A DNA stretch of 64,000 nt from Ectothiorhodospira sp. BSL-9. Lineage in GTDB: Bacteria; Pseudomonadota; Gammaproteobacteria; Ectothiorhodospirales; Ectothiorhodospiraceae. How positions within the stretch are numbered: the stretch's first letter is position 1; every line of letters starts with the position of its first letter. The DNA lies in NCBI RefSeq assembly GCF_001632845.1, contig NZ_CP011994.1, positions 1,240,001 to 1,304,000 on the forward strand, in the 5' to 3' direction. The notes under the pieces are model-generated. The model made no database searches. It was given only the letters and a program-made list of their open reading frames with translations, and had not been told where the DNA came from. The position numbers and the translations under genes were made by a program. This document shows positions 6,747 through 58,999 of this stretch, in pieces.

Positions 6747-7748
6747 ATGAGCAACGTGCGGAATGTGGCAGTGGTGGGCGCCGGCTCCTGGGGAACGGCG
6801 CTCGCCCTGCATCTGGCTCGCAAGGGGCTCGATGTGGGGCTGTGGGGTCGCGATAGCGACCACGTCAGATCCATGCAGGCAGAGGGTCGCAACGCCCGCT
6901 ATCTGCCGGAGGTTCCCTTCCCCGAGACCCTGGGGGCCACATCGGACCTGGAAGGCCTGGTGGACCGGGCTGACCGGGTGCTCCTGGCCGTGCCCAGTAG
7001 TGGGTTTGGCCCGGTGCTCCAGCGCATTGCTCCACATCTGGGTTCGAGCGGTCTGATCTGGGCCACCAAGGGGCTGGATCTGGACAGTACCCGCTGGCTG
7101 CATGAGTTGGTGCTGGAGGAACTGGGGTCGGATCGACCCTGGGGTGTGGCCTCCGGGCCCTCCTTTGCCGGTGAACTGGCGCGGGGCCTGCCCACGGCAC
7201 TCACGCTGGCCTCGCCGGATACGGGTTTCGCTGAGGACGCCATGACGTGGATGGCGGGCGGCACCCTGCGGGTTTATACCAGCGACGATGTGGTGGGCGT
7301 GCAGTTGGGTGGCGCCTTCAAGAACGTGCTGGCCATCGCCGCCGGGGTGTCCGATGGTCTGGGCTTCGGGGCCAACGCCCGCGCCGCCCTGATCACCCGG
7401 GGGCTGGCGGAATTGATGCGCCTCGGGGCCGCCACCGGCGCCCGCACCGAGACCCTCATGGGTCTGTCCGGTCTGGGGGATCTGGTGCTCACCTGCACCG
7501 ACAATCAATCCCGCAACCGCCGCCTGGGCATGGCGCTGGGTCAGGGACAGAGCCTGGAGGAGGCCATCGCGGCCATCGGTCAGGCGGTGGAAGGGGTGAG
7601 CACGGCCCGCATCGCCGTGGCCAAGGCCTCGGCCCTGGGTGTGGACATGCCCATCTGCAGTCAGGTGGCGCGGGTATTGTTCGAGCAACTGCCTCCCACC
7701 GTGGCGGTGGAGGAACTGCTCAGCCGGGATCCCAAACCGGAATTCTAG
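6747..7748 (+). CDS. gpsA: NAD(P)-dependent glycerol-3-phosphate dehydrogenase
   Basis: The 333-residue enzyme reduces dihydroxyacetone phosphate to sn-glycerol-3-phosphate for phospholipid synthesis. The N-terminal Rossmann motif is VGAGSWGTA. The conserved WATKGLD and SGPSFAGEL segments are present, as is the catalytic lysine block QLGGAFKNV. The C-terminal helical domain includes the GLGDLVLTC motif. Length and motif order are normal. Its stop codon overlaps the stop of convergent trmL by two bases. Confidence 0.97.
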
Positions 7749-8209
7749 GCACCGCCCGCATAGCCGCATTGCCGCCAGGCCTCATACACCACCAGGGCCA
7801 CCGAGTTGGACAGGTTCAGGCTGCGGCTGTCCGGCACCATGGGTATTCTCACCCGCCGCTCTGCCGGCAGCCCGGCCAGCACCGTCTCCGGCAGGCCCCG
7901 GGTCTCCGGGCCGAACAGCAGTGCATCACCCGCCTCGAAGTGCGTGTCGCCCAGGCCCTGTTGCCCACGGGTGGTCACGGCAAACAACCGCCGGGGGGCG
8001 ACAGCTTCCGAGAACGCCCCCAGGCTGTCATACTCCGACACCGACGCTAGATCCCGATAGTCCAGGCCGGCACGGCGCAGCCGTGTGTCATCCAGGGTGA
8101 ACCCCAGGGGATGGATCAGGTGCAGGCGGCAGCCCGTGTTGGCCGCCAGGCGCATGACGTTGCCGGTGTTGGGCGGGATTTCCGGTTGATACAGGACGAT
8201 GTGAAACAT
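7745..8209 (-). CDS. trmL: tRNA (cytidine(34)-2'-O)-methyltransferase
   Basis: This 154-residue SPOUT methyltransferase modifies the wobble base of tRNA-Leu isoacceptors. Family blocks are PEIPPNTGN at the start, [11 protein letters not shown] (SAM-binding knot), [17 protein letters not shown], and a final YEAWRQ helix. The start ATG shares the palindromic CATG at 8207-8210 with the ATG of divergent pyrD, so the two coding regions overlap by two bases. The stop overlaps that of gpsA. In E. coli trmL also belongs to this neighbourhood, there after cysE, which is absent here. Confidence 0.95.
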
Positions 8210-9155
8210 GCCAGTCGATACCCATCACAAACAGGCCCTTGCCATCGATTTCTGCGGCCTGCCGTTTGCCTCGCCCCTGGTGCTGCTTTCGGGCTGCGTC
8301 GGTTTTGGCGAGGAGTATACCCGGGTCGCGGGCTTCTCCAATCGCCAGGTGGGGGCGGTGTGCCTCAAGGGCACCACGGGCGACGCCCGCCTGGGTAACC
8401 CGCCGCACCGGGTGTACGAGACCCCCGATGGCATGCTCAACGCCATCGGCCTGCAGAACCCCGGGGTGGACCATGTGGTGGACGAGATCCTGCCGAACCT
8501 GGATTTCGATGAGACCCGCTTCATCGCCAATGTGTCCGGGTCCACCATTGAGGAGTACATCCGCGTTACCCAGCGGTTTGACGACTCCCCGGTGGATGCC
8601 ATCGAGATCAATATCTCATGCCCCAACGTGAAGGAGGGCGGGGTGGCCTTCGGTAACGACCCGGACATGTCGGCCCGGGTGGTGGAGGCCTGCCGCAAGG
8701 TGACGCAAAAGCCCCTGATCACCAAGCTCTCGCCCAATCAGACGGACATCGCCGGGAATGCACGGCGCTGCATCGAGGCGGGGACCGATGGCCTCTCGGC
8801 CATCAACACCCTGATGGGGATGGCGATTGATACAGAGCGTCGCCGTACGGTGATTGGCAACAACCAGGGCGGTCTGTCGGGCCCGGCGGTGAAGCCGGTG
8901 GCCCTGCTGCGGGTGCATCAGGTCTACCAGGTGGCCCGGCCCCATGGGGTGCCCATCATCGGTCAGGGCGGGGTGGCCAGTGCCGATGATGCCATCCAGT
9001 TCCTGCTGGCCGGCGCCACAGCGGTGGGGGTGGGCACGGGGCTGTTCTACGACCCCCTGCTGTGCGGCAAGATCAATCACGGTATCAGCGATTATCTCAA
9101 GCGCCATGGCATGAGCCATGTGTCGGAGCTCACCGGGGCCCTGGAGCTGAACTGA
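8208..9155 (+). CDS. pyrD: Dihydroorotate dehydrogenase, class 1B catalytic subunit
   Basis: The 315-residue FMN protein oxidises dihydroorotate to orotate. The catalytic base is cysteine (Cys138, motif [12 protein letters not shown]), which marks class 1; the class 2 enzymes usual in gammaproteobacteria use serine. The GLQNPGVD segment, INTLMGM and [12 protein letters not shown] flavin-phosphate loop fit PyrDB. A matching PyrK subunit (31194-32075) supports class 1B, an NAD+-linked heterotetramer. The gene is remote from pyrK, starting divergently from trmL within a shared CATG. It is followed after about 50 bp by a hairpin and a tRNA on the other strand. Confidence 0.93.
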
Positions 9156-9202
9156 AGCCCCCTCGTGCCAGGCTTCCATGACCACGAAGATGATCTCCAC
9201 AA

Positions 9203-9233
9203 CAAAAAAGGGCGGCCCCATGGGCCGCCCTTT
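9203..9233 (-). terminator. Rho-independent terminator of tRNA-Thr, probably shared with pyrD
   Basis: A 9-bp GC stem (GGGCGGCCC paired with GGGCCGCCC, loop CAT), extended by three A-T pairs, lies between pyrD and the tRNA. On the minus strand it is followed by TTTTTT, the normal order for an intrinsic terminator of the tRNA transcript. On the plus strand it could end pyrD, although the U-tract there is only three bases. Confidence 0.85.
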
Positions 9234-9237
9234 GCGT

Positions 9238-9313
9238 TGGTGCCGGAGAGAGGAGTCGAACCCCCGACCTTGGCATTACGAATGCCCTGCTCTACCAACT
9301 GAGCTACTCCGGC
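9238..9313 (-). tRNA. tRNA-Thr (anticodon CGT)
   Basis: The minus strand from 9313 folds into a full cloverleaf. The acceptor stem is GCCGGAG/CTCCGGC with discriminator A and an encoded CCA at 9240-9238. The D-arm includes AGCTCAGTTGGTAGAGC. The anticodon stem is GGGCA/TGCCA (one closing mismatch possible) with loop TTCGTAA, giving anticodon CGT, which reads threonine codon ACG. The T-loop is GTTCGACTC. A terminator follows directly. Confidence 0.97.
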
Positions 9314-9438
9314 GTGCCTGGGAATGTTGCCAGGGACGTTCATCCCGGGCCAACCTCTCCGACAGCCCGCGAAGGTTACAACAACCAGCCTGCGGACTCA
9401 AGATTGACCGTGCCCAGAGTCTTATCGGAGGTGTTGCC

Positions 9439-11496
9439 ATGATCCCTGCTGCTTTCGCCATGCCCTTGCTGCTGCTGATGGCAGCCCCGGTTGCGGGGAC
9501 CGAGGGGACAGGGGCCGACACGGCCGTGGGCCTGGACCCTGTTCAGGTGAGCGCCCCCCGCCTTGAGCGGGACTGGCTGGGCAGTCCCGCCGCCATCGGT
9601 CTGCTGGACCCCGAAGATGTGGGCATGGGCCGTCAAGGGCTGCAACTGGACGAATACCTGAATCGCATCCCCGGCCTGCAGATGCAGAACCGCTACAACT
9701 TCGCCCAGGATATCCGCCTGTCCATCCGGGGCTTTGGTGCCCGCGCCCCTTTCGGTGTGCGTGGGCTGCACATCCGCGTGGATGGCATCCCTGAAACCCT
9801 TCCGGACGGTCAGTCTCAGGTGGATGCCATTGATCTGGAGTCCCTTCAACGGGCAGAAGTGATCCGTGGCCCCAGTTCCACCCAGTACGGCAACGCCGCC
9901 GGCGGGGTGGTGGATTTGCATACCCAGCGAGGACGGGATATGCAGGGCGTGCAGGCCAAGGTGGATGCTGGAAGCCATGGCTTGCGTCGCCTGGGCATCA
10001 AGGCGGGAGATCAGGCGGGACCCTGGGAGTACAGTGTCAGTGGCTGGGACCTGCGCTATGACGGCTATCGGGATCACAGCCGGGTGGAGAAGCGGCTGCT
10101 CAATGCCAGGCTGGGTTACGAATTTGACGATGGCGCCCGCATTGAGGCGGTGCTGCGTGCCCTGGATGCACCGGACACCCAGGACCCGGGATCGCTGACC
10201 CGGGAAGAAGTGCAGGACGACAGGCGGCAGGCACGGGAGGCCTCCCTGGCTCGGGATGGCGGGCAGTCCGCGGAACAGCAGACCCTGGGGCTCACCTACA
10301 CCCGCCCCCTGGGTGCGGACGACGAGCTGGAACTGCGTGGTTTTGTGAGCCAGCGAGACTTCAACAACCGTTTGCCGTTTGAGGGCGGGGGGCAGGTGCG
10401 CTACCAGCGGGATCACCATGGCCTGGGCGCTCGTTACACCCGTCAGGCGACGGTCGGCAGCCTTCCCATCCTCTATACCGCCGGTGTGGACCTGGCCGAG
10501 CAGCGGGATGACCGCCAGCGCTTTGACAATCTGGACGGTGGTATCCGGGGGGAGCAGCAATTCGACCAGCTGGAACGCGCCCGCTCCCTGGGAGTCTTCA
10601 CTCAGGGGGGGGTAGAGCTGACGGATCGCCTGGATCTGGTGCTCGGCGCCCGCCATGACCGCCTGCGCATGTCCGTGGATGACCGATTCAGCGACCCGGG
10701 GGAGGACCGCTCCGGTCGCCAGGATTTCCGTGAATGGAGTTATCGCGCCGGGCTCGGCTATGCCTGGACACCGGGGCACCAGTTCTACGTCCAGTTGGGC
10801 ACCTCGTTCGAAAGCCCCACCTTCACCGAATTTGCCAATCCCGATGGCGGCACGGGTCTCAACCCGAATCTGGAGCCGGAGCGGGCCCGTAGCCTGGAGT
10901 TGGGTGCCAAGGGCTTCTGGGGTGATACGGGCCGTTACGAGCTGGCGGTGTTCACCACGCAGGTGCGTCATGAGATCGTGAACTACCAGTCGGACGATGA
11001 GCGTGACTATTACGAAAACTCCGGTCGCTCCAGACGCCACGGCCTGGAAGCCGGCGCCTCCTGGTATCCCATGGATCCCCTGCGCCTGACCCTGGCCTAC
11101 ACCCTGTCGCATTATCGGTTCAGGGAGTTTCGCGACGAATCGGGCGAGGACTTCTCGGGCAAGGCCTTTCCCGGCGTGCCGCGCCAGCAGCTATTCGCCG
11201 AACTGGCCTGGCAGGGCCCCGAGGGGCGATTCGTCACCGTGGACATGCTCGCCGTGGATCGGCTTTACGCGGATAACGCCAACACCGAGCGGGTGTCGGG
11301 GCACGTGTTGACGAATCTGCGCCTGGGGCGGGCCTGGGAAACGGGGAACGCCCGGGTGGTGCCCTATCTGTCCGTCAACAATCTCTTCGATCAGGACTAC
11401 CAGAGCAACATTCGCATCAACGCCCTGGGCGGCCGTTATTACGAGCCCGGCCCCGGTCGGGAATACGGAGTCGGGCTGAGCGTGCAGTGGCGCTGA
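9439..11496 (+). CDS. TonB-dependent outer-membrane receptor
   Basis: The start is the ATG at 9439, preceded by GGAGG; this gives 685 residues with a signal peptide (about 1-22, ending PVAG). The plug domain (about 30-155) contains VDGIPETLPDGQ and the AEVIRGPSSTQYGNAAGG motif. The rest is a 22-strand-type barrel with Arg/Asp/Gly-rich loops. Its C-terminal strand ends in an aromatic residue plus Arg (QWR) rather than a final aromatic. Plug and barrel resemble FecA/ferric-siderophore receptors, but no siderophore, heme or cobalamin gene is adjacent, so the ligand is unknown. TonB is encoded at 36007-36867; no exbBD is visible. Confidence 0.93.
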   Translation: MIPAAFAMPLLLLMAAPVAGTEGTGADTAVGLDPVQVSAPRLERDWLGSPAAIGLLDPEDVGMGRQGLQLDEYLNRIPGLQMQNRYNFAQDIRLSIRGFGARAPFGVRGLHIRVDGIPETLPDGQSQVDAIDLESLQRAEVIRGPSSTQYGNAAGGVVDLHTQRGRDMQGVQAKVDAGSHGLRRLGIKAGDQAGPWEYSVSGWDLRYDGYRDHSRVEKRLLNARLGYEFDDGARIEAVLRALDAPDTQDPGSLTREEVQDDRRQAREASLARDGGQSAEQQTLGLTYTRPLGADDELELRGFVSQRDFNNRLPFEGGGQVRYQRDHHGLGARYTRQATVGSLPILYTAGVDLAEQRDDRQRFDNLDGGIRGEQQFDQLERARSLGVFTQGGVELTDRLDLVLGARHDRLRMSVDDRFSDPGEDRSGRQDFREWSYRAGLGYAWTPGHQFYVQLGTSFESPTFTEFANPDGGTGLNPNLEPERARSLELGAKGFWGDTGRYELAVFTTQVRHEIVNYQSDDERDYYENSGRSRRHGLEAGASWYPMDPLRLTLAYTLSHYRFREFRDESGEDFSGKAFPGVPRQQLFAELAWQGPEGRFVTVDMLAVDRLYADNANTERVSGHVLTNLRLGRAWETGNARVVPYLSVNNLFDQDYQSNIRINALGGRYYEPGPGREYGVGLSVQWR

Positions 11497-50484: not shown

Positions 50485-51161
50485 TCACCCGCCCGTGTCT
50501 TCCCGCCAGCGGTCCATGGCCCGGTAACTCAGGGCCTCCATGAGATGCGTCTGCTGGATGGTGGCCTGCTGGTCCATGTCCGCCAGGGTGCGGGCCACCC
50601 GCAGGATGCGGTGATAGCTGCGCGCAGACAGCCGGAACCGGTCCATGGCCTGTTCCAGCAGGCGTCGGTTCTCGGGGCTCAGTTCGGTCAGCCGCTCCAG
50701 TTCACGGCCGGAGAGGGCCGCATTCAGGCAGCCCTGTCGCGCCAACTGGCCGTTGCGACAACGCAGCACGCGGGCCCGCACGGTGGCGCTGGACTCCGGG
50801 GTGGGGCCGGCGTCCATGAGCAGATCCCGGGGCAGGCGCGGCACCTCGATGCACAGGTCGATGCGATCCAGCAGGGGCGCCGAGATGCGCCCGCGCTGAC
50901 GCCTGCGTTGCTCCGGTGTGCAGCGGCATTGCGGCCCCAGGTCGCAGTCATATCCCTGGGGACAGGGGTTCATGGCCGCCACCAGTTGAAACCGCGCGGG
51001 AAACTCCGCCTGATGTGCCGCCCGGGAAATGGTGATCTGGCCGGTCTCCAGGGGTTCCCGCAGCACGTCCAGCACCCGGCGATCGAACTCGGCCATCTCA
51101 TCCAGGAACAGGATGCCGTTGTGGGCCAGGGAAATCTCCCCGGGGCGGGGGCGTGAGCCAC
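50485..51161 (-). pseudogene. comM: ComM (YifB/Mg-chelatase-like helicase), C-terminal fragment split by the Tn7-like island
   Basis: About 225 C-terminal codons of comM remain. They include the Walker B block GILFLDEMAEFDRRV, NPCPQGYDCD with its Cys-rich insert (CRCTPEQRRR), and the C-terminal GRELERL/SARSYHRIL region. The N-terminal Lon-like domain and Walker A are missing. Homology stops abruptly at the codons for GSRPRPGEIS, where the intact protein would read GGGS; beyond 51162 the sequence is transposon end. The frame continues 12 codons into the island, giving a chimeric N-terminus that begins at 51198. ComM is a branch-migration helicase needed for efficient natural transformation. 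Confidence 0.93.
51157..51161. other. Candidate 5-bp target-site duplication, left copy
   Basis: GCCAC lies immediately outside the island terminus TGTGAATTCC. Tn7-family elements make 5-bp duplications. On the comM strand it reads GTGGC, inside the Gly-rich GGGS codons. The second copy should adjoin the right end, beyond the window, so the assignment is unconfirmed. Confidence 0.5.
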
Positions 51162-51234
51162 TGTGAATTCCACAAAAAATGCCGATTGCAGCTATCATAG
51201 ATCAATGACATACGGTGATTTTTACATGAATTGA
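51162..51234. repeat. Left transposon end with imperfect inverted repeats
   Basis: The terminus TGTGAATTCCACAAAAAATG is followed about 50 bp later, at 51213-51232, by a sequence whose complement is AATTCATGTAAAAATCACCG. Aligned with AATTCCACAAAAAATGCCG at 51166-51184 it shares AATTC, an A-rich core and CCG. These are candidate TnsB-binding sites. Tn7 ends typically hold several sites of about 22 bp; only two could be picked out by eye. Confidence 0.55.
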
Positions 51235-51272: not shown

Positions 51273-51953
51273 ATGGAACAAGAAATTAACGGACTGACTT
51301 CGATGCGCCCTGTGCGCTCCATCGGCACGAGCCGCCGGAGCGTGACTGGGCGGGTCGCCTTTGGTGGAAAATCGATCCCCTTCGAGTCCTCGTTGGAGCG
51401 GGATTTCCTGGTCTTGCTCGATTTTGACTTGGCGGTGGAGGATGTTCTGGAGCAGCCGTGTCGCATCACGTTCACGGATGCGAACGGTCGGGAACGCCAC
51501 TACACGCCCGACTTCCTCGTGGAGTACGGGGATGGCGAACGCGTGATCTTTGAGGTGAAGTACCGTGCCAACCTGAAGGACGAGTGGACTTCACTGAAGC
51601 CGCGCTTTCGGGCCGCTATACGGTACGCCAAGCAGAATGGCATGCGCTTCTCGATCGCGACGGAGGTCGAAATCAGAGGCGGGGCCTATCTGGCCAACGC
51701 CAGGTTTCTGCGACCATATCGAGACTATAAGTGGACACCGGCCATCGACGAACACCTGATCAAGACGCTCGTCACCCTTGGTGAAACCACGCCGGAATCG
51801 TTGTTGGCGGCGGCCTACTGGACCCTGGAGAACAGGATCAAGGCCGTCTCGAGCCTTTGGCGCTTGGTCGCGACCCGAAGGATCCATGCGGATCTTTACG
51901 AACCCCTCACGATGGCAACGCCCATCTGGACAACGCTGGAGGATGGCCTCTGA
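51273..51953 (+). CDS. tnsA: TnsA-like endonuclease (TniC)
   Basis: The 226-residue protein has a PD-(D/E)xK nuclease core: a Glu in FESSLERDF (Glu38 or Glu42), Asp80 in YTPDFLVEY, and Glu94-Val-Lys96 in VIFEVKYR. A C-terminal winged-helix-like domain (about 150-226) fits the TnsC-contact part of TnsA. TnsA cuts the 5' ends of the element while TnsB cuts the 3' ends, giving cut-and-paste movement. It is the first gene of the module, about 110 bp from the island terminus, and its stop overlaps the tnsB start (TGATG). Confidence 0.93.
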   Translation: MEQEINGLTSMRPVRSIGTSRRSVTGRVAFGGKSIPFESSLERDFLVLLDFDLAVEDVLEQPCRITFTDANGRERHYTPDFLVEYGDGERVIFEVKYRANLKDEWTSLKPRFRAAIRYAKQNGMRFSIATEVEIRGGAYLANARFLRPYRDYKWTPAIDEHLIKTLVTLGETTPESLLAAAYWTLENRIKAVSSLWRLVATRRIHADLYEPLTMATPIWTTLEDGL

Positions 51954-53887
51954 TGAGCGAGCCAGCATTCCTTTCGATGAAACCCGGGTCATTTGTGATC
52001 TCCCAGGGCAAGCGCTTCAAGATCACGCACATGCTCGGTGTAGACAGTGTTCTTGCCAAGAACCTGGAAACCAACGCGGTTGAGCGGCTTCGGGTCGATC
52101 TAATTAGGCCCTTCAAGGATGAGGATCTGCCTGATGGCGTCGTGGCCGCTGGACGCGATATCGAAGACATCTGCGATGAGGATTGGAAGGAAGCTCAGCG
52201 CCGGTTCGCGGTGATCAAGCCACTACTTGATGATCCTGGGCGAACACGGGAAAAGGTCCGACAGGCGGCAGAGGTCGAGGGCGTGGCTACCGGAACGCTC
52301 TACGACTGGATCCGCGCCTACAACGAGTCGGGACAGCTTTCTGCGCTTGTTCCTCAGAAGCGTGGCCGCAAGCCAGGGCAGACGGGGTTGGATTCTGACC
52401 TTGAGGAGATCATTGAGGCTGCAATTCAGGAGATCTATCTGAGCAAGCAACGGCAGAAGCCTCAGGACGTGGTGGACCATGTCGCCCTTCTGTGCCGCAA
52501 CGCTGGCATCAAGCCTCCACACGCCAATACCGTGCGGAATCGCCTGAAGAGGCTGCGCCCAAAGCGGGTTCTAAGGGCCCGAGGAATGGGAGACAAGGCG
52601 CGAAACCTGTACACCCCAATCAGGGGGAATTTCCCCGGCGCGGAGTTTCCGCTCGCGGTCGTCCAGATCGATCATACCGAAGCCGACATCATTGTGGTTG
52701 AGGAGGGCACCCGCCAGCCCATGGGGCGCCCTACGATCACGTTGGCGATTGATGTCTACAGCCGGATGGTTACCGGCTGTTATGTGTCCATGGAAAAGCC
52801 CAGCGCGGTGGCGGCCGGTATGTGTTTGGCCCGGTCCATGATGCCCAAGAATGAGTACCTTGCGGACCTTGAAGTGCCGGGCGACTGGCCGGTGTGGGGC
52901 AAGATCGGCACGGTTCATTGCGACAACGCCAAGGAATTCCGTGGCGCCATGCTCTCCAACGCCTGCGAGCAGTACGGAATAGATCTGCAGATGAGACCGG
53001 TGAAGGTGCCGCACTATGGTGGCCATATTGAGCGATTGATGGGCACCAGTGCGGGGGAATTTCGCAAGCTTCCGGGCGCAACCTTTTCTTGCCCAAAGGA
53101 GCGCAAGGGGTATGACTCCGAAAAGGAGTCCGCGCTGACCCTGAGGGAGTTCGAGCAGCGTTTGGTCGATTTTATCGTCAATGTCTACCACCAGCGGGTG
53201 CATGCCGACTTGAATGTGCCGCCCCGGCGGCAGTGGGAAATCGGCTTGCTGGGGGATACGTCCCAACCCGGAAAGGGCATACCGGAGGTTCCGAGTGACC
53301 CTCGGCGGTTGAGGCTCGACTTCCTTCCGTTCGTCGAGCGTACGGTCCAGCCCTACGGCATCGTGGTTGACGAGATATTTTACTACCACGAGGTCCTCAA
53401 CCCCTGGATTAACGCCCGTGAACCGAAGCGTTCCAAGGAAAAGCGGAAGTTCATTGTCCGGCGTGATCCGCGTGACATTAGCGTGGTCTACTTCTTCGAC
53501 CCAGAGGCGCACCAATACTACGAGATCCCTTACCGAAATACCGCACACCCTCCGATCAGTGTGTGGGAGCTGAGAGCGGCTCAGCAGAGGTTAAAGGAAG
53601 AAGGGCGGGCGCATGTGGACGAGGACACGATATTCGAGGCCATAAGCCGAATGCGCGAAAGGGTCGAGGAAGCTGTGACCAAAACGAAGGCGGCTCGCCG
53701 ACAGCAGCATCGGATCAAAACTACCCAGAAAAGCGCGCAGGCCCGCCAAAAGACTGCGGATACCCCCGCGCCGGCACAAGAATCTTTGCCCGCCGGGGGC
53801 AATGCGCCGACAGCCGCTCCCTCGGACGCGGATGACATCTTCTCGATGCCAATTCAACCCTTTGATGACCTTGCGGTGAAGCAATGA
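51953..53887 (+). CDS. tnsB: TnsB-like DDE transposase (TniA)
   Basis: It has 644 residues from the ATG at 51953, overlapping the tnsA stop. An N-terminal SH3-like/HTH region (HTH near 105-160) is followed by the integrase-fold catalytic domain with Asp240 (VQIDHTEAD), Asp324 (VHCDNAKEF) and Glu360 (GGHIERLMG). A beta-barrel follows, then a Lys/Arg- and Ala-rich C-terminal tail of about 100 residues that probably contacts TnsC. The three catalytic residues are intact. It binds the ends and performs strand transfer. Its stop overlaps the tnsC start by four bases. Confidence 0.95.
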   Translation: MSEPAFLSMKPGSFVISQGKRFKITHMLGVDSVLAKNLETNAVERLRVDLIRPFKDEDLPDGVVAAGRDIEDICDEDWKEAQRRFAVIKPLLDDPGRTREKVRQAAEVEGVATGTLYDWIRAYNESGQLSALVPQKRGRKPGQTGLDSDLEEIIEAAIQEIYLSKQRQKPQDVVDHVALLCRNAGIKPPHANTVRNRLKRLRPKRVLRARGMGDKARNLYTPIRGNFPGAEFPLAVVQIDHTEADIIVVEEGTRQPMGRPTITLAIDVYSRMVTGCYVSMEKPSAVAAGMCLARSMMPKNEYLADLEVPGDWPVWGKIGTVHCDNAKEFRGAMLSNACEQYGIDLQMRPVKVPHYGGHIERLMGTSAGEFRKLPGATFSCPKERKGYDSEKESALTLREFEQRLVDFIVNVYHQRVHADLNVPPRRQWEIGLLGDTSQPGKGIPEVPSDPRRLRLDFLPFVERTVQPYGIVVDEIFYYHEVLNPWINAREPKRSKEKRKFIVRRDPRDISVVYFFDPEAHQYYEIPYRNTAHPPISVWELRAAQQRLKEEGRAHVDEDTIFEAISRMRERVEEAVTKTKAARRQQHRIKTTQKSAQARQKTADTPAPAQESLPAGGNAPTAAPSDADDIFSMPIQPFDDLAVKQ

Positions 53888-54774
53888 GCGATTTGGATCA
53901 CCTGGAACCGTCTATACGCGGCGCCATGTCCCTCCCCACGGAAGAACGCATTGCTTTCGCGCAGCAGGACCGTTGGATTGGCTACACGAAGGCCCAGGAG
54001 GCGCTGCGTACCCTCTCGGATCTTCTCGCGCACCCACGCACGCTACGGATGCCGAATCTGTTGCTGGTGGGTGAAAGCGGGAACGGAAAAACCACGATCA
54101 TCGACAAGTTCCGGGAGCTTCACCCGGTGGTATCCCAGCCAGGCGGGGAGCCGTTGGTACCGGTGGCGACCATGGGGATGCCATCGGAGCCCGTCGAGGC
54201 GCGATTCTGGACTGAACTTCTGCTGGCTCTGAAAATCGCCCACCGGGACTCGGATCCTGTGCAGCGCAAGAAGAACCAAGCGCACTCGATTCTCACGTAC
54301 GTGCAATGTCGCATGCTGGTGATCGATGAGATCCACAACCTCCTCTACGGACATGCACGCCAGCAGCGCCATTTCCTTGGGGTGATGAAGAACCTGAGTA
54401 ACGATCTCAAACTCCCGATCGTCGCAGTCGGCACCCGGGATGCGATCCGAGCACTGCATACTGACACGCAGCTATCCAGTCGTTTCGAGCCCTTTGGGTT
54501 GCCCCGATGGCAGCTTGATGCCGAGTTTTTGCGCTTGCTCGCGAGCTTCGAGCGCCTTCTGCCACTCGCCAAGCCCTCCAACCTGGCCAGCAGGGAATTG
54601 GCGATCAAGTTGCATGGAATGAGTGGGGGCACGATTGGAGGGCTTGCCAGGATCCTGAAACGGGCGACAGTCCAGGCCATCCGCGACCGCAGCGAGCAGA
54701 TCACACTGAAGACGCTTGGTCAGCTTGATTGGGTCAAGCTGTCTGATTACGGCAAGCAAGCGCAGACCCTATGA
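53884..54774 (+). CDS. tnsC: TnsC/TniB-like AAA+ ATPase
   Basis: The 296-residue ATPase has Walker A GESGNGKTT (Lys69), Walker B MLVIDEIH (Asp148, Glu149), a sensor 1 region in VAVGTRDAI, and the conserved FEPFGLPRWQLD segment of TniB. TnsC forms filaments on target DNA and links the TniQ protein to the transposase. The starting ATG overlaps tnsB and the stop overlaps tniQ, both by ATGA. Confidence 0.95.
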   Translation: MSDLDHLEPSIRGAMSLPTEERIAFAQQDRWIGYTKAQEALRTLSDLLAHPRTLRMPNLLLVGESGNGKTTIIDKFRELHPVVSQPGGEPLVPVATMGMPSEPVEARFWTELLLALKIAHRDSDPVQRKKNQAHSILTYVQCRMLVIDEIHNLLYGHARQQRHFLGVMKNLSNDLKLPIVAVGTRDAIRALHTDTQLSSRFEPFGLPRWQLDAEFLRLLASFERLLPLAKPSNLASRELAIKLHGMSGGTIGGLARILKRATVQAIRDRSEQITLKTLGQLDWVKLSDYGKQAQTL

Positions 54775-55841
54775 TCGGTGACACGTGGCCTTACTGTGTA
54801 CAGCTGCAGGAAGACGAACTGCTTTCCTCCTTCCTGATTCGCAATGCGCGGGCACATGGCACAACGCCGTATTGTTTCCTTAGCTACTACTGGCCAGGCC
54901 GCCACTTCTGGGACCGGGATACTGACCGGACGGCGGATACAGATTGGCTTAAGGAGTTGGAAGTCCTGGCCGGGGTTCCGGCGGAGCGATTGGAGGCCAG
55001 TACGCTACTGCCCTTTCGCCGTGTCTTGGGAAGCACGCTGCGCAGCGGTGACACGCCGCTGCTTCTGGCGGTCAGTCTCTTTCACCGGACGCGCCGTCGC
55101 CATGGGCTCCAGTTCTGCCCGGCGTGCTTTGCGGAGGGGCGCCAATGGTTCCGCCGGACTTGGCGGCTGGGATTCGTTTTCGTCTGCCCCGAACACCGGA
55201 TTCCACTCATGGATGCCTGCCCCGCGTGTGGAAGCCCTGTGGTGCCCCATCGGTCCTTGTCGTTGGACTTGTCACGCTGCCATGAATGTGGCGCCTTCTT
55301 GGGTGGCGATTACCGTGGCGAGTTGCCGGCCGCGGGTGTTTTGGAATGGCAGAAAATGCTGCTGGATACCTTGGTGGGTTCGCGGGTAGGCGTGGGTCCT
55401 TTCGAGCGATCGGAGGCCTTCGCTGCGGTGCGAAGCCTGTTGTCCGTCCTCACCGCCCGTGGGGTGCACAAGGCAATCCGGGAGACGTTCCGTCTTCCCG
55501 CGGCCACCCTGGGGAGCGAAAGGCTTCAGTTTGAGCATGCGCGGGCTGTAGATCGCTCAGTTCTGATGGAAACCCTGGCGGCATGGCTCTCCGACTGGCC
55601 CTCCTCGTTTCGGGTGGGTGCCAATGCCGCCCATCTGACACAGAGAACATTTCGCCGCCTGAATCAGCTGCCGTCAAAACTGGGGCTGGAGGTCGAGGGC
55701 CTTCCACCAGGGGGAGAGCGCGATAGGCGGTATGTGCCAAAGGTCTTCGATGCAAAACTGATGCGTCTTGCCCGGCTGGACAAGAAAGCCTACCGCGCAT
55801 TGCGTGCGCAACGGCTTCGGGCATTGTCGGGGCTGTCATGA
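54771..55841 (+). CDS. tniQ: TniQ/TnsD-like target-selection protein (TniD)
   Basis: The 356-residue protein has the TniQ N-terminal domain, with EDELLSSFLIRNARAHG near residue 14. A zinc-binding array has Cys116/Cys119 (CPAC), Cys139/His142 (CPEH), Cys150/Cys153 (CPAC) and Cys170/Cys173 (CHEC). About 180 residues follow, rich in Leu, Arg and HTH-like helices. Proteins of this type recognise the attachment site and recruit TnsC. Since the element lies in comM, this protein probably recognises the comM site, perhaps with the TniE-like protein. That link is inferred. Confidence 0.93.
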   Translation: MIGDTWPYCVQLQEDELLSSFLIRNARAHGTTPYCFLSYYWPGRHFWDRDTDRTADTDWLKELEVLAGVPAERLEASTLLPFRRVLGSTLRSGDTPLLLAVSLFHRTRRRHGLQFCPACFAEGRQWFRRTWRLGFVFVCPEHRIPLMDACPACGSPVVPHRSLSLDLSRCHECGAFLGGDYRGELPAAGVLEWQKMLLDTLVGSRVGVGPFERSEAFAAVRSLLSVLTARGVHKAIRETFRLPAATLGSERLQFEHARAVDRSVLMETLAAWLSDWPSSFRVGANAAHLTQRTFRRLNQLPSKLGLEVEGLPPGGERDRRYVPKVFDAKLMRLARLDKKAYRALRAQRLRALSGLS

Positions 55842-57424
55842 CAGATCCATCCTCGGAGAAAATGCGGCGCTGCGACGAGTGTGGTAAAGAGATGGTACGG
55901 GCCTCCCGAATCGAGAATGGCTATGCGTACTGCGGGACCTGCTACAACAGGGTGTTCAAACGTGTGGCCTGTTCGTTATGCGGTGGACCGGCGCGGGTCC
56001 GCGAGCACGACGGGGAGCCTGTGTGCCCCTCCTGTAGACGGAAGAATCGCTCGTGCTGGAGGTGTGGAAAGGAAATCGATAAAGCCGGCCGAATCATAGG
56101 GGACAAGGCAGTCTGCGCATCTTGCGCTCATTATTTCGCTGAGCCCAAACCCTGCCCAAATTGCGGGCAGTTGTCCCGTCGCCTGAGCCGGTCGCCGTCG
56201 CAGGGTTTCGACGAACCGGTGTGTGATCGGTGCCGTAACCAGCATCTGGAAACGTGCAGTGTCTGTCGTCGCTACCGCAAGGTGGAACAGCGCGATGAAG
56301 CCGGACGCTCCTTATGTTGGCAGTGCGCCGCCGAGGAACCAGTGCGGCATTCCTGCCCTGAGTGCGGTGCCGATGTGCCGGGTGGTGGATCTGCACGATG
56401 TGAAGCTTGTGCACTGAAGGACAGGGTGCGTCGTCGCGTCAGGCTTAATGTGGAGTTGCTGGAACAAACTTGGGTGCGTTCGTTATTCGAGGCCTTTTGC
56501 GCGTGGGAGGAATTGCGCAAGGAAGCAGGCAACATGACCGCCCGGATTGACCGATACGCCGTATTCTTCGCAGAGATTGATCGTCACTGCATGGCGCCTG
56601 GTGAGGTCACCCAGAGCCACTTATTCAATATCTTCGGGGCAGAACGGCTCAGGCGAGGATTTCTCATCGTTTCGTTCCTCTGTGAGCGTCTGGAGATCGA
56701 GTGGGATGCGGGCGCTCTTGAAGATATGATCGAGACAAAGAGAATCCGTCTGCAGGCCCAGTCATGGCAAGATCGGCCTTGGGCCTTGGATCTTCAACGC
56801 TTCGTTGAAGAGCTCCAGCACCGCAAAGGGCCGTCGCTCAAGCGAAAGACAATCAGGATGTATCAGACGGCCGCTGGTGGCCTTCTCGAAACGTCCGGTG
56901 TGAATTCTCCGGGAGAGCTAACGCAGGCAGGCCTGCAACGCTATTTGAAACGCCATCCCGGACAGGCCGCCAACTTGAGCGCTTTTGTTCGGTATCTGCG
57001 AGAGGGCTCTGGAGTATTACTCGACTTAAGGTATAAACCTCAGGCCTCGCTGCTGAAAAAGGATCGTAAACTTGTCGAGCATGTACAGGCCATGGTCAAA
57101 CAACTTGAGGCAGAGACTAACGAGCTTAGGGCCAAGGCACTGCTGGTGGGGTTGCTGGCCGCTCTTTATCGGGTTCCAGCCAAGGAGATTCTGACGTTGA
57201 CAGAAAATGATGTTTTGGAGGATTCGGAAGGTTTCCTACTTTGGCCAAAGAACTACGAACTACGTGTTGAGGGGCGTCTTGCAAAACTGTTAAAACGCTG
57301 GGTTCCCTCTTCCACAGAAGGAGTGAACGGCTTCCTGTTTAAGGGCAGGAACAAGGTGCAGCCTTTGACTCAAGACGCAGTACGACATCATTTGTCTATC
57401 TCTAGCAAAGAAGTGACCGACTGA
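55838..57424 (+). CDS. tniE: TniE-like protein: zinc-ribbon array plus recombinase-like domain
   Basis: The 528-residue protein starts with twelve CxxC motifs in about 190 residues, spaced as six zinc-ribbon pairs (CDEC, CGTC, CSLC, CPSC, CWRC, CASC, CPNC, CDRC, CSVC, CWQC, CPEC, CEAC). After a helical part comes a segment like the SAM-like N-terminal domain of tyrosine recombinases (about 305-385). A partial core follows with LLAALYRVPAKEILTL. In that core the first catalytic Arg appears replaced, and the frame stops before an HxxR/Tyr segment. It is probably not a recombinase but a DNA- or protein-binding factor of the transposition module. It overlaps tniQ by ATGA. Confidence 0.85.
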   Translation: MTDPSSEKMRRCDECGKEMVRASRIENGYAYCGTCYNRVFKRVACSLCGGPARVREHDGEPVCPSCRRKNRSCWRCGKEIDKAGRIIGDKAVCASCAHYFAEPKPCPNCGQLSRRLSRSPSQGFDEPVCDRCRNQHLETCSVCRRYRKVEQRDEAGRSLCWQCAAEEPVRHSCPECGADVPGGGSARCEACALKDRVRRRVRLNVELLEQTWVRSLFEAFCAWEELRKEAGNMTARIDRYAVFFAEIDRHCMAPGEVTQSHLFNIFGAERLRRGFLIVSFLCERLEIEWDAGALEDMIETKRIRLQAQSWQDRPWALDLQRFVEELQHRKGPSLKRKTIRMYQTAAGGLLETSGVNSPGELTQAGLQRYLKRHPGQAANLSAFVRYLREGSGVLLDLRYKPQASLLKKDRKLVEHVQAMVKQLEAETNELRAKALLVGLLAALYRVPAKEILTLTENDVLEDSEGFLLWPKNYELRVEGRLAKLLKRWVPSSTEGVNGFLFKGRNKVQPLTQDAVRHHLSISSKEVTD

Positions 57425-57649: not shown

Positions 57650-58999
57650 ATGAACGCAATTAGCCTTGAAGGCTCGCCTTACCTGCTAGATGATGAGGCT
57701 GAAAATGAAGTGACACAACGAGTGACGGAGCTTGATGAGCGCGTGTCATTGCTGCGTGCACATGGCTCACTAAATGAAGATACGATCAAAGAGTACTACG
57801 GAGAAAAAAGATTTGAGCAGGTTGCCGAATCCAACGCTATTGAGGGGAGCACCCTCTCGATAGGTGAGACTGAGTTGGCTGTATTAAAGGGTACTACTAT
57901 CACTGGGCATGATCCAGCTTACGTCAGGGACGCGCTGTCGTTGGATAAAGCTCTACAGCGGCTAACTGTCATGGCAAGACAAGCTGAGAGTCCTACAGAT
58001 ATTAGTCAGGTTAAAGAGCTACATGGGTTAATCCTTGGTGATCGACTTGGTGCCGGGGTCTTTCGAGCGGAGCCAGTACGTATCAGCGGTTCAAGCCACA
58101 CCCCACCAAAGACCTGGAATGAGGTAATGGACTCGATGGAGGACTGGGAAAACTGGTCGAAAAAGAATGCGACGCTACCAGCGCCAATTAGGGCTGCTAT
58201 CTTGCATGCCTGGTTATCTCACATACACCCATTTATCGATGGGAATGGTCGAACTGCAAGAGCGATTACCAATCTAGAATTGGTGAGATCCGGTTATCCT
58301 CCTGTGATCATAAAGAAAAAAGAAAAAGATCGATACATTGAGGCCCTTTCCGAATCGGATGATGGGGGGGATATTCGTAGTTTTCTCGAGCTGATTTTCG
58401 AGCGCTTAGATGGGGCGTTGATTGGGTTAGAGCTATCAGCTAGGAAAAAACAGGGATATAGTCCAATACAAGAACGGATCCGACAAAAACAGCAGAGGCA
58501 GTTTAATATCTGGGACTCGAGCATTAATCTTCTAGCTAGAACAATTGAGCATAAGCTGCAGTCTGAGATTGAGCCGCTGAATGGGAGGGTGTCTGTTAAG
58601 ATTTTTGAGTCGCCACTAGATCTTGACGATTATTTAGCTATTTGCGATGGGAAATCTGCGCAGAAGTCGTGGGCGTTCATAGTTAGTATTTTGATTCCTG
58701 GTTTTGCTACTCAAACCCGATTGGCTTACGTAGGTTTTAGGAGTAAGCTAATGCTTCAAGAATTGACTGACGAAGGCGGTCCCTCACTGTTGTGGTCGAA
58801 AAGAAATCCTGAAGGGTTTCCAAAATGGAAGGGGGTCTCACATGAGGCGCCCTATGCGGTCGAGCTGACAACGAAGCTTGGCGCCGGTGATGAATGGTAT
58901 GCAAGACGGATTGATGGAGTGATAGAAAATCTGTCGACGACAATGCTGGCGGCTAAGATCGCTAACAGTCTTATTGACCTTGCATCTAATAATAAGTGA
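57650..58999 (+). CDS. Fic-domain protein, class II (self-inhibited AMPylase type)
   Basis: The 449-residue protein has the Fic motif HPFIDGNGR with His193. The inhibitory helix motif SNAIEG lies at residues 61-66, with the regulatory Glu at 65. That N-terminal position defines class II. Fic enzymes usually attach AMP to target hydroxyls; the Glu blocks ATP gamma-phosphate until released. A C-terminal region of about 200 residues after a winged-helix-like part has no motif I recognise. DNA here is AT-richer than the core chromosome. No antitoxin gene is adjacent, which fits self-inhibition. Targets are unknown. Confidence 0.92.
   Translation: MNAISLEGSPYLLDDEAENEVTQRVTELDERVSLLRAHGSLNEDTIKEYYGEKRFEQVAESNAIEGSTLSIGETELAVLKGTTITGHDPAYVRDALSLDKALQRLTVMARQAESPTDISQVKELHGLILGDRLGAGVFRAEPVRISGSSHTPPKTWNEVMDSMEDWENWSKKNATLPAPIRAAILHAWLSHIHPFIDGNGRTARAITNLELVRSGYPPVIIKKKEKDRYIEALSESDDGGDIRSFLELIFERLDGALIGLELSARKKQGYSPIQERIRQKQQRQFNIWDSSINLLARTIEHKLQSEIEPLNGRVSVKIFESPLDLDDYLAICDGKSAQKSWAFIVSILIPGFATQTRLAYVGFRSKLMLQELTDEGGPSLLWSKRNPEGFPKWKGVSHEAPYAVELTTKLGAGDEWYARRIDGVIENLSTTMLAAKIANSLIDLASNNK

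Follow-up and report, generated by a model that had tools for sequence, protein, structure and literature searches.

TnsF of a Tn7-like element inserted in comM of Ectothiorhodospira sp. BSL-9: a very probable target selector with six zinc fingers and a recombinase-like half that has lost its catalytic site

The 528-aa protein studied here is encoded in a window of 64,000 nucleotides from Ectothiorhodospira sp. BSL-9 (contig NZ_CP011994.1, positions 1,240,001 to 1,304,000). It belongs to the known TnsF family as a new member and very probably selects the target for a Tn6022-type (Tn7-like) transposon, a role that includes the proposed hand-over of the site to TniQ; we put the probability of this reading at roughly 0.9. 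Homology, domain anatomy, loss of the catalytic site, and insertion in comM with a target-site duplication were observed for the window copy itself. By analogy with its homologue in Acinetobacter johnsonii, the protein would also bind DNA and TniQ and be needed for transposition. In that case it would direct a Tn7-type transposase to comM as a target selector made of protein alone.

The gene, formerly called orf3 or tniE, was named TnsF by Faure et al. (2023; PMC10293859), and that paper describes an anatomy of fingers, CB1, CB2, and a partial catalytic domain. In E. coli, comM insertion by AjTn6022 was impaired on removal of TnsA, TnsB, TnsC, TniQ, or TnsF; A. johnsonii TnsF bound both comM dsDNA and TniQ; and a 10-bp stretch within the Walker B codons was required for comM insertion (PMC10293859). 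A 2024 review states that Tn6022 targets comM via TniQ and Orf3 (PMC11406308). An earlier sequence-only reading of the window had called the role of the protein poorly defined, a view that is out of date, since the function was published in 2023 for the Acinetobacter relative; its suggestion that the protein may read the target or contact DNA agrees with the binding of the homologue to comM DNA (PMC10293859). For the A. johnsonii homologue, the structure prediction and the deletion test proposed in that reading are already in print (Faure et al. 2023). Among the matches listed (titles and beginnings of abstracts, with subscription literature mostly uncovered), no further paper on TnsF function was found. 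The features of the window are collected in Table 1.

Table 1. Features of the comM insertion, the transposon module, and the domains of TnsF (positions are those of the window)
Feature	Position	Strand	Remark
comM 3′ part, interrupted host gene	50485..51161	-	TIGR00368 positions 281-499
5-bp target-site duplication GCCAC (GTGGC on comM sense strand)	51157..51161	.	
Left terminal inverted repeat TGTGAATTCCAC	51162..51173	+	right-end match at genome position 1,320,957, beyond the window
tnsA, endonuclease	51273..51953	+	Tn7_TnsA-like_N E 3.1e-18
tnsB, DDE transposase (start codon inferred)	51953..53887	+	Mu-transpos_C E 9e-9
tnsC, TniB-type AAA ATPase	53884..54774	+	Pfam TniB E 7.7e-68
tniQ, 356 aa, basic C-terminal tail	54771..55841	+	Pfam TniQ E 1.3e-27
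tnsF (= tniE/orf3), 528 aa, very probable target selector	55838..57424	+	open ORF; relatives in Tn6022-type modules
Six zinc fingers, residues 12-191, 24 invariant Cys	55871..56410	+	
Fingers 1-3, residues 12-96	55871..56125	+	portion retained in TniQ-TnsF fusions
CB1 helical domain, residues 195-312	56420..56773	+	AlphaFold2 pLDDT 90
CB2, SAM-like core-binding domain, residues 313-400	56774..57037	+	3nrw match
Partial catalytic domain, residues 401-528	57038..57421	+	Pro447 (57176-57178) in Arg I column; ends before HxLR box

The Tn7-like element is 29,796 bp long and splits comM, with ends TGTGAATTCCAC and the 5-bp duplication GCCAC, and the comM flanks, once joined, read through as ComM. 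The 5′ part of the gene lies at genome positions 1,320,955-1,321,797. The two halves, about 30 kb apart, are the sole strong comM matches in the genome, where two more are weak and partial. For the host, the element splits the only strong match to a gene reported to aid the recombination of DNA acquired by transformation (PMC10293859). In this host, 47 nt separate the element end from the Walker B codons (ILFLDE, ComM 337-342) that follow it.

No confirmed relative was obtained when genome contigs were scanned with the single window sequence, nor from the viral contigs scanned; with an alignment as the query, the genome contigs yielded 25 tnsF loci. Together with the window these make 26 loci, of which 19 are at comM (the window, 17 assigned by tblastn, and L038 assigned by pattern), 3 lie elsewhere, and 4 are unjudgeable, three on short contigs (L022, L033, and L037) and one with no recognisable Tn7 genes upstream (L023). 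When two loci with TniQ-TnsF fusions are added to the 19, 21 comM junctions are available, and 19 of them fall on the identical nucleotide and 2 are shifted by one. The element ends 17 nt ahead of the PGE-motif Pro codon in these 19, at 16 nt in L017, and at 18 nt in L031, the end being defined as the ACA nearest 17 nt from that codon (a second ACA lies nearby in L018, L019, and L035). All 21 junctions have the element on one side, with the tnsA end facing the comM 3′ part. The 5-bp duplication was checked at both ends, and is present at both, in the window, L030, and L035; a single end is visible at the other loci. In L038 the comM 3′ part is broken again just past the Walker B codons, as if by a second element.

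The loci outside comM are Tn6022-type elements of Vreelandella (L026, L027, and L028), and in L027 and L028 the element lies inside the end of an ORF that resembles a transposase by eye. These three of the 26 loci indicate that TnsF does not dictate every insertion, and the Vreelandella elements perhaps follow another targeting route.

The window protein and TnsF of an Acinetobacter element share 25.8% identity over 95% of the query (E 8e-28). No curated family for window TnsF was found in Pfam, NCBIfam, or PADLOC, and the Pfam search gave sub-threshold zinc-ribbon and XPA_N matches only. In the tree, Tn7-type TnsF (26 rows) and Tsy-type proteins (3 rows) form separate clades with support of 100/99, and the window copy is placed outside the clade of the Acinetobacter rows. 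The contig of L023 is labelled as a Riflebacteria MAG, but this assignment may reflect a binning error, since the tnsF of the locus is closest in the tree to proteobacterial rows. The ORF preceding tnsF in this locus was unmatched to TniQ, and a transposase fragment was also seen there by eye. Finger-bearing TnsF-like proteins also occur in Actinobacteria, on plasmids of Streptomyces (L092) and Gordonia (L093), and in Gordonia L093 and Variovorax L094 the TnsF-like gene adjoins a tyrosine recombinase and an HTH gene.

The N-terminal part of TnsF carries the twelve CxxC motifs that had been read from the sequence within about 190 residues. They lie at residues 12, 32, 45, 63, 73, 93, 106, 129, 140, 160, 173, and 188, and all 24 cysteines are kept in 19 of 19 aligned TnsF proteins; shuffling of residues 1-195 (20,000 trials) gave a mean of 2.8 motifs and a maximum of 9. 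Excluded from the 19-row alignment were L022 (contig end), L033 (open end), L037 (broken frame), the near copies L027-L029 and L038, the plasmid rows, and the rows with G handles. Over 32 related frames, 27 contain exactly 12 motifs (including L022 and L033, which run off their contigs) and L010 and L017 contain 13; the others are L037, broken and short, and the TniQ fusions L008 and L041, which are the same genes as in L050 and L051. The twelve motifs make six two-knuckle zinc sites, and the six zinc-ribbon pairs of the earlier reading are not borne out. Every finger unit of the AlphaFold2 model has a helix starting at its second CxxC, so that, on this reading of the secondary structure, treble-clef (GATA/LIM-like) fingers would be a better description than ribbons. 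In a PDB-sequence profile search, the sole match with E below 0.01 was a weak one to GATA-3 (E 0.0051); the best-ranked Foldseek rows were mostly LIM-domain proteins, every one with E above 0.001.

The C-terminal part resembles a tyrosine recombinase. The AlphaFold2 model built on 19 sequences had a mean pLDDT of 83 and a pTM of 0.47, the latter meaning that the relative placement of the domains is unreliable. With VIA-align, XerD (1a0p, chain 3-240) matched residues 314-528 with Z 9.6 over 197 residues (rmsd 13.1 across two domains), the topoisomerase IB catalytic domain (2h7f) matched residues 412-527 with Z 9.8 over 104 residues (rmsd 2.6), and the SAM-like integrase N-domain (3nrw) matched residues 313-400 with Z 7.7 over 84 residues (rmsd 2.5), which is below Z 8, the minimum advised for the tool. 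The SAM-like domain and the shortened tyrosine-recombinase fold predicted by the sequence-only reading were both recovered in this way; Foldseek by itself returned no match to window TnsF at E <= 0.001, and neither did a BFVD fold search, which gave none convincing at full length. CB1 queried alone reached at best Z 2.7, with no convincing fold, and the likeness by which it is termed core-binding-like (PMC10293859) may still hold.

When the C-terminal half was aligned by profile with XerC/D-type proteins (30 loci fetched, 22 past a motif filter and used), 197 columns were covered with E 6.8e-5 and a probability of 63%; with only the window, L014, and L017, the values were E 4.5e-6 and 87%. The alignment ends at template residue 237-238, about 12 residues short of the HTLRH box at 250, and Pro447 occupies the column of the catalytic Arg I, as had been anticipated from the apparent replacement of the first Arg and the missing HxxR/Tyr end. 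The 19 rows hold P (6), K (5), S (4), R (2; L017 and L024), T (1), and D (1) in the Arg I column, and 4 of the 19, including the window (Lys471), hold Lys in the catalytic Lys column. An active tyrosine recombinase has a full catalytic set of Arg, Lys, HxxR, His, and Tyr, and window TnsF lacks it. An active recombinase, or a resolvase for cointegrates, might be supposed from the recombinase-like fold and the retained Lys471, but Pro447 occupies the Arg I position and truncation has removed the HxLR box with everything beyond it, so such a role is hardly conceivable and was rejected. The C-terminal tail is longer in the window copy and in Burkholderiales L010, L014, and L017 than in the Acinetobacter and Halomonas rows; window TnsF retains about 40 more catalytic-domain residues than the Acinetobacter rows, and its contact with TniQ may therefore differ from theirs.

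The gene order of the module is tnsA-tnsB-tnsC-tniQ-tnsF, with the tnsA end adjoining the comM 3′ part. The idea that the protein is translated together with TniQ is supported by the arrangement of the genes: the window tnsF start overlaps tniQ by 4 bp, and in 28 of 28 loci an open frame stops at a point from 2 bp upstream of the tnsF start to 14 bp into the gene, with overlap in 26 and a 2 bp gap in 2. TniQ was detected by tblastn in 27 of the 28 (the window being counted via its own Pfam match), with none in L023. The last 40 residues of the window TniQ have a net charge of +10, and such a basic tail is in line with the published TniQ-TnsF contact (PMC10293859).

In the mechanism that we propose, TnsF would bind the conserved Walker B region of comM and pass the site to TniQ via its truncated recombinase domain, and TniQ would recruit TnsC and TnsAB. 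TnsAB and TnsC would then carry out the insertion, in a single orientation, at a point some 47 bp upstream of the Walker B codons; TnsF itself has no recombinase chemistry. The order of hand-over from TnsF to TniQ and on to TnsC and TnsAB is the one we infer. TniQ relatives such as TnsD of Tn7 themselves read DNA, and the C-terminal end of the TnsF catalytic domain is lost, so TniQ might itself choose comM and TnsF might be mainly a structural adaptor or regulator of TniQ and TnsC. We regard this as improbable, because TniQ was not found by tblastn in two Tsy loci with comM pieces, Tsy is reported to use a TnsF-like protein for comM without Tn7 genes, and TnsF alone binds comM DNA (PMC10293859). 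Selection of the target by TnsF is therefore preferred.

Which part of TnsF reads comM may be approached through the fusions. In L050 (G021, 7674-9716) and L051 (G166, 7771-9792), TniQ is fused to TnsF fingers 1-3 in proteins of 681 and 674 aa; G021 belongs to the family of the window genome and G166 to its class, and one such fusion, SCZ64694, is in print (PMC10293859). The fused fingers match TnsF fingers 1-3 with E 1.6e-28 and fingers 4-6 with E 0.018. When fingers 4-6 and the C-terminal half were searched for in the fusion loci, only short weak pieces were found, and the best of them (E 1.4e-4) overlies the fused fingers themselves. The linker that joins TniQ to the fingers contains a SAM-like segment (Phage_int_SAM_1 E 3.5e-6 in L050, 0.059 in L051). 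Beyond TniQ, separate TnsF and the fusions thus have in common fingers 1-3 and some SAM-like domain. Both fusion elements are inserted at the standard comM nucleotide and retain only fingers 1-3, which makes these fingers a good candidate for the comM reader, a proposal newly offered here.

The sequences of the fingers bear on this proposal. The finger region has 9 invariant non-Cys residues, 7 of them within fingers 1-3. Arg38, Arg53, and Arg75 are unchanged in all 19 rows and both fusions, and the Variovorax Tsy-type protein shares them, together with Tyr36 and Phe40, with all of these proteins; Gly28 is absent from both fusions. Tentatively, and at somewhat less than even odds, fingers 1-3 would read comM with one invariant Arg each, and the recombinase-like half would serve mainly as a dock for TniQ; the natural fusions would have shed fingers 4-6 along with the partial catalytic domain now that TniQ is covalently joined. 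The three Arg as sole determinants of specificity are a weakened proposal, since the comM-linked Tsy proteins L060 and L061 are without all three. The finger reading is also limited in that there are just two fusions, and present-day insertion of these elements need not be the work of the fused protein.

The alternative within the TnsF explanation is that the recombinase-like domains CB1 and CB2 read comM and that fingers 1-3 merely stabilise the complex or contact TniQ. This has a chance only just short of even. It was proposed by the published authors (PMC10293859). Such domains bind DNA in true recombinases, the fusions too carry a SAM-like linker segment, and the missing Arg38, Arg53, and Arg75 in Tsy L060 and L061 agree with it as well. 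On the other hand, the strong match of the fused fingers to fingers 1-3 and the concentration there of invariant residues favor the fingers, and no profile match of the fusion linker to CB1 or CB2 was detected, a weak negative because CB1 and CB2 themselves hardly match each other (E 0.008) and the fusion profile consists of two sequences. If the finger reading is true, a protein-only module of three fingers would serve as a portable target reader for Tn7-like insertion; the TniQ-finger fusions would be natural minimal selectors, from which a small module for steering such insertion could be derived.

The rest of the element carries a 601-aa gene at its right end (L009:15072-16874, minus strand), on the strand opposite to tnsF. 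It matches opposite-strand genes located 3′ of tnsF in L011 (E 3.7e-41), L010 (4e-13), L017 (1.1e-10), and L030 (1.4e-8), and the relative in L030 also adjoins the comM 5′ part, as in the window element. Pfam TnsE_C was not matched by the window element's own 601-aa gene; sub-cut-off matches were obtained in L017 (E 0.025) and L010 (E 0.091). The gene is probably tnsE. The cargo includes a Fic protein (window 57650-58999) and an 864-aa protein (L009:9764-12355) that matches the PADLOC candidate defence family PDC-S28 (E 6e-104). Four further cargo genes at L009:6-3945 (genome 1,304,006-1,307,945), coding for a methyltransferase, a 223-aa protein, a 358-376-aa protein, and an ATPase-like protein, recur in conserved order in L060:15093-19963 with 27-47% identity (E 1e-21 to 8e-125). 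The first set belongs to the Tn7-type window element and the second to a Tsy locus of another family, and they are perhaps a defence cassette common to comM islands.

Among known systems, TnsF of AjTn6022 resembles the window protein in its operon with a short TniQ, its N-terminal fingers, its comM target, and its partial catalytic domain without a catalytic chamber (PMC10293859). It is shorter, with 498 aa against the 528 aa of window TnsF, whose sequence continues until shortly before the HxLR box. At the sequence level the window protein was compared with the Acinetobacter rows, not with the A. johnsonii protein, and it shares only 20-26% identity with those rows. The fusions in L050 and L051 are similar to SCZ64694 in joining TniQ to TnsF fingers (PMC10293859), and unlike separate TnsF they form one polypeptide with fingers 1-3 only, the CB1-CB2-partial catalytic part being undetected downstream. 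XerD and XerH share the fold of residues 314-528, whereas TnsF has Arg I replaced, lacks the C-terminal catalytic part, and has fingers added.

The TnsF-like proteins of Tsy (L060:9868-11787 and L061:183-2099) are similar to window TnsF in having fingers, CB domains, and an association with comM (PMC10293859). Unlike window TnsF, they are about 640 aa long with a full-length C-terminal domain, and they are accompanied by a tyrosine recombinase, an HTH protein, and, in L060 only, a GIY-YIG protein. Catalytic activity is reported to be essential for ZooTsy TnsF (PMC10293859). An intact catalytic set was expected in the Tsy-type proteins but was unsupported, as the HxLR box was not recognised by eye in any of five (L060, L061, L092, L093, and L094), and some Tsy-type TnsF may also be catalytically dead. 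The Tsy loci in G449 and G427 contain the tyrosine recombinase, the HTH protein, the TnsF-like gene, and a piece of comM that aligns as far as residue 346, four residues beyond Walker B. Tsy thus cuts comM just past Walker B and the window element inserts before it, so that these codons have Tn7-type insertions on one side and Tsy insertions on the other, which agrees with the published work (PMC10293859).
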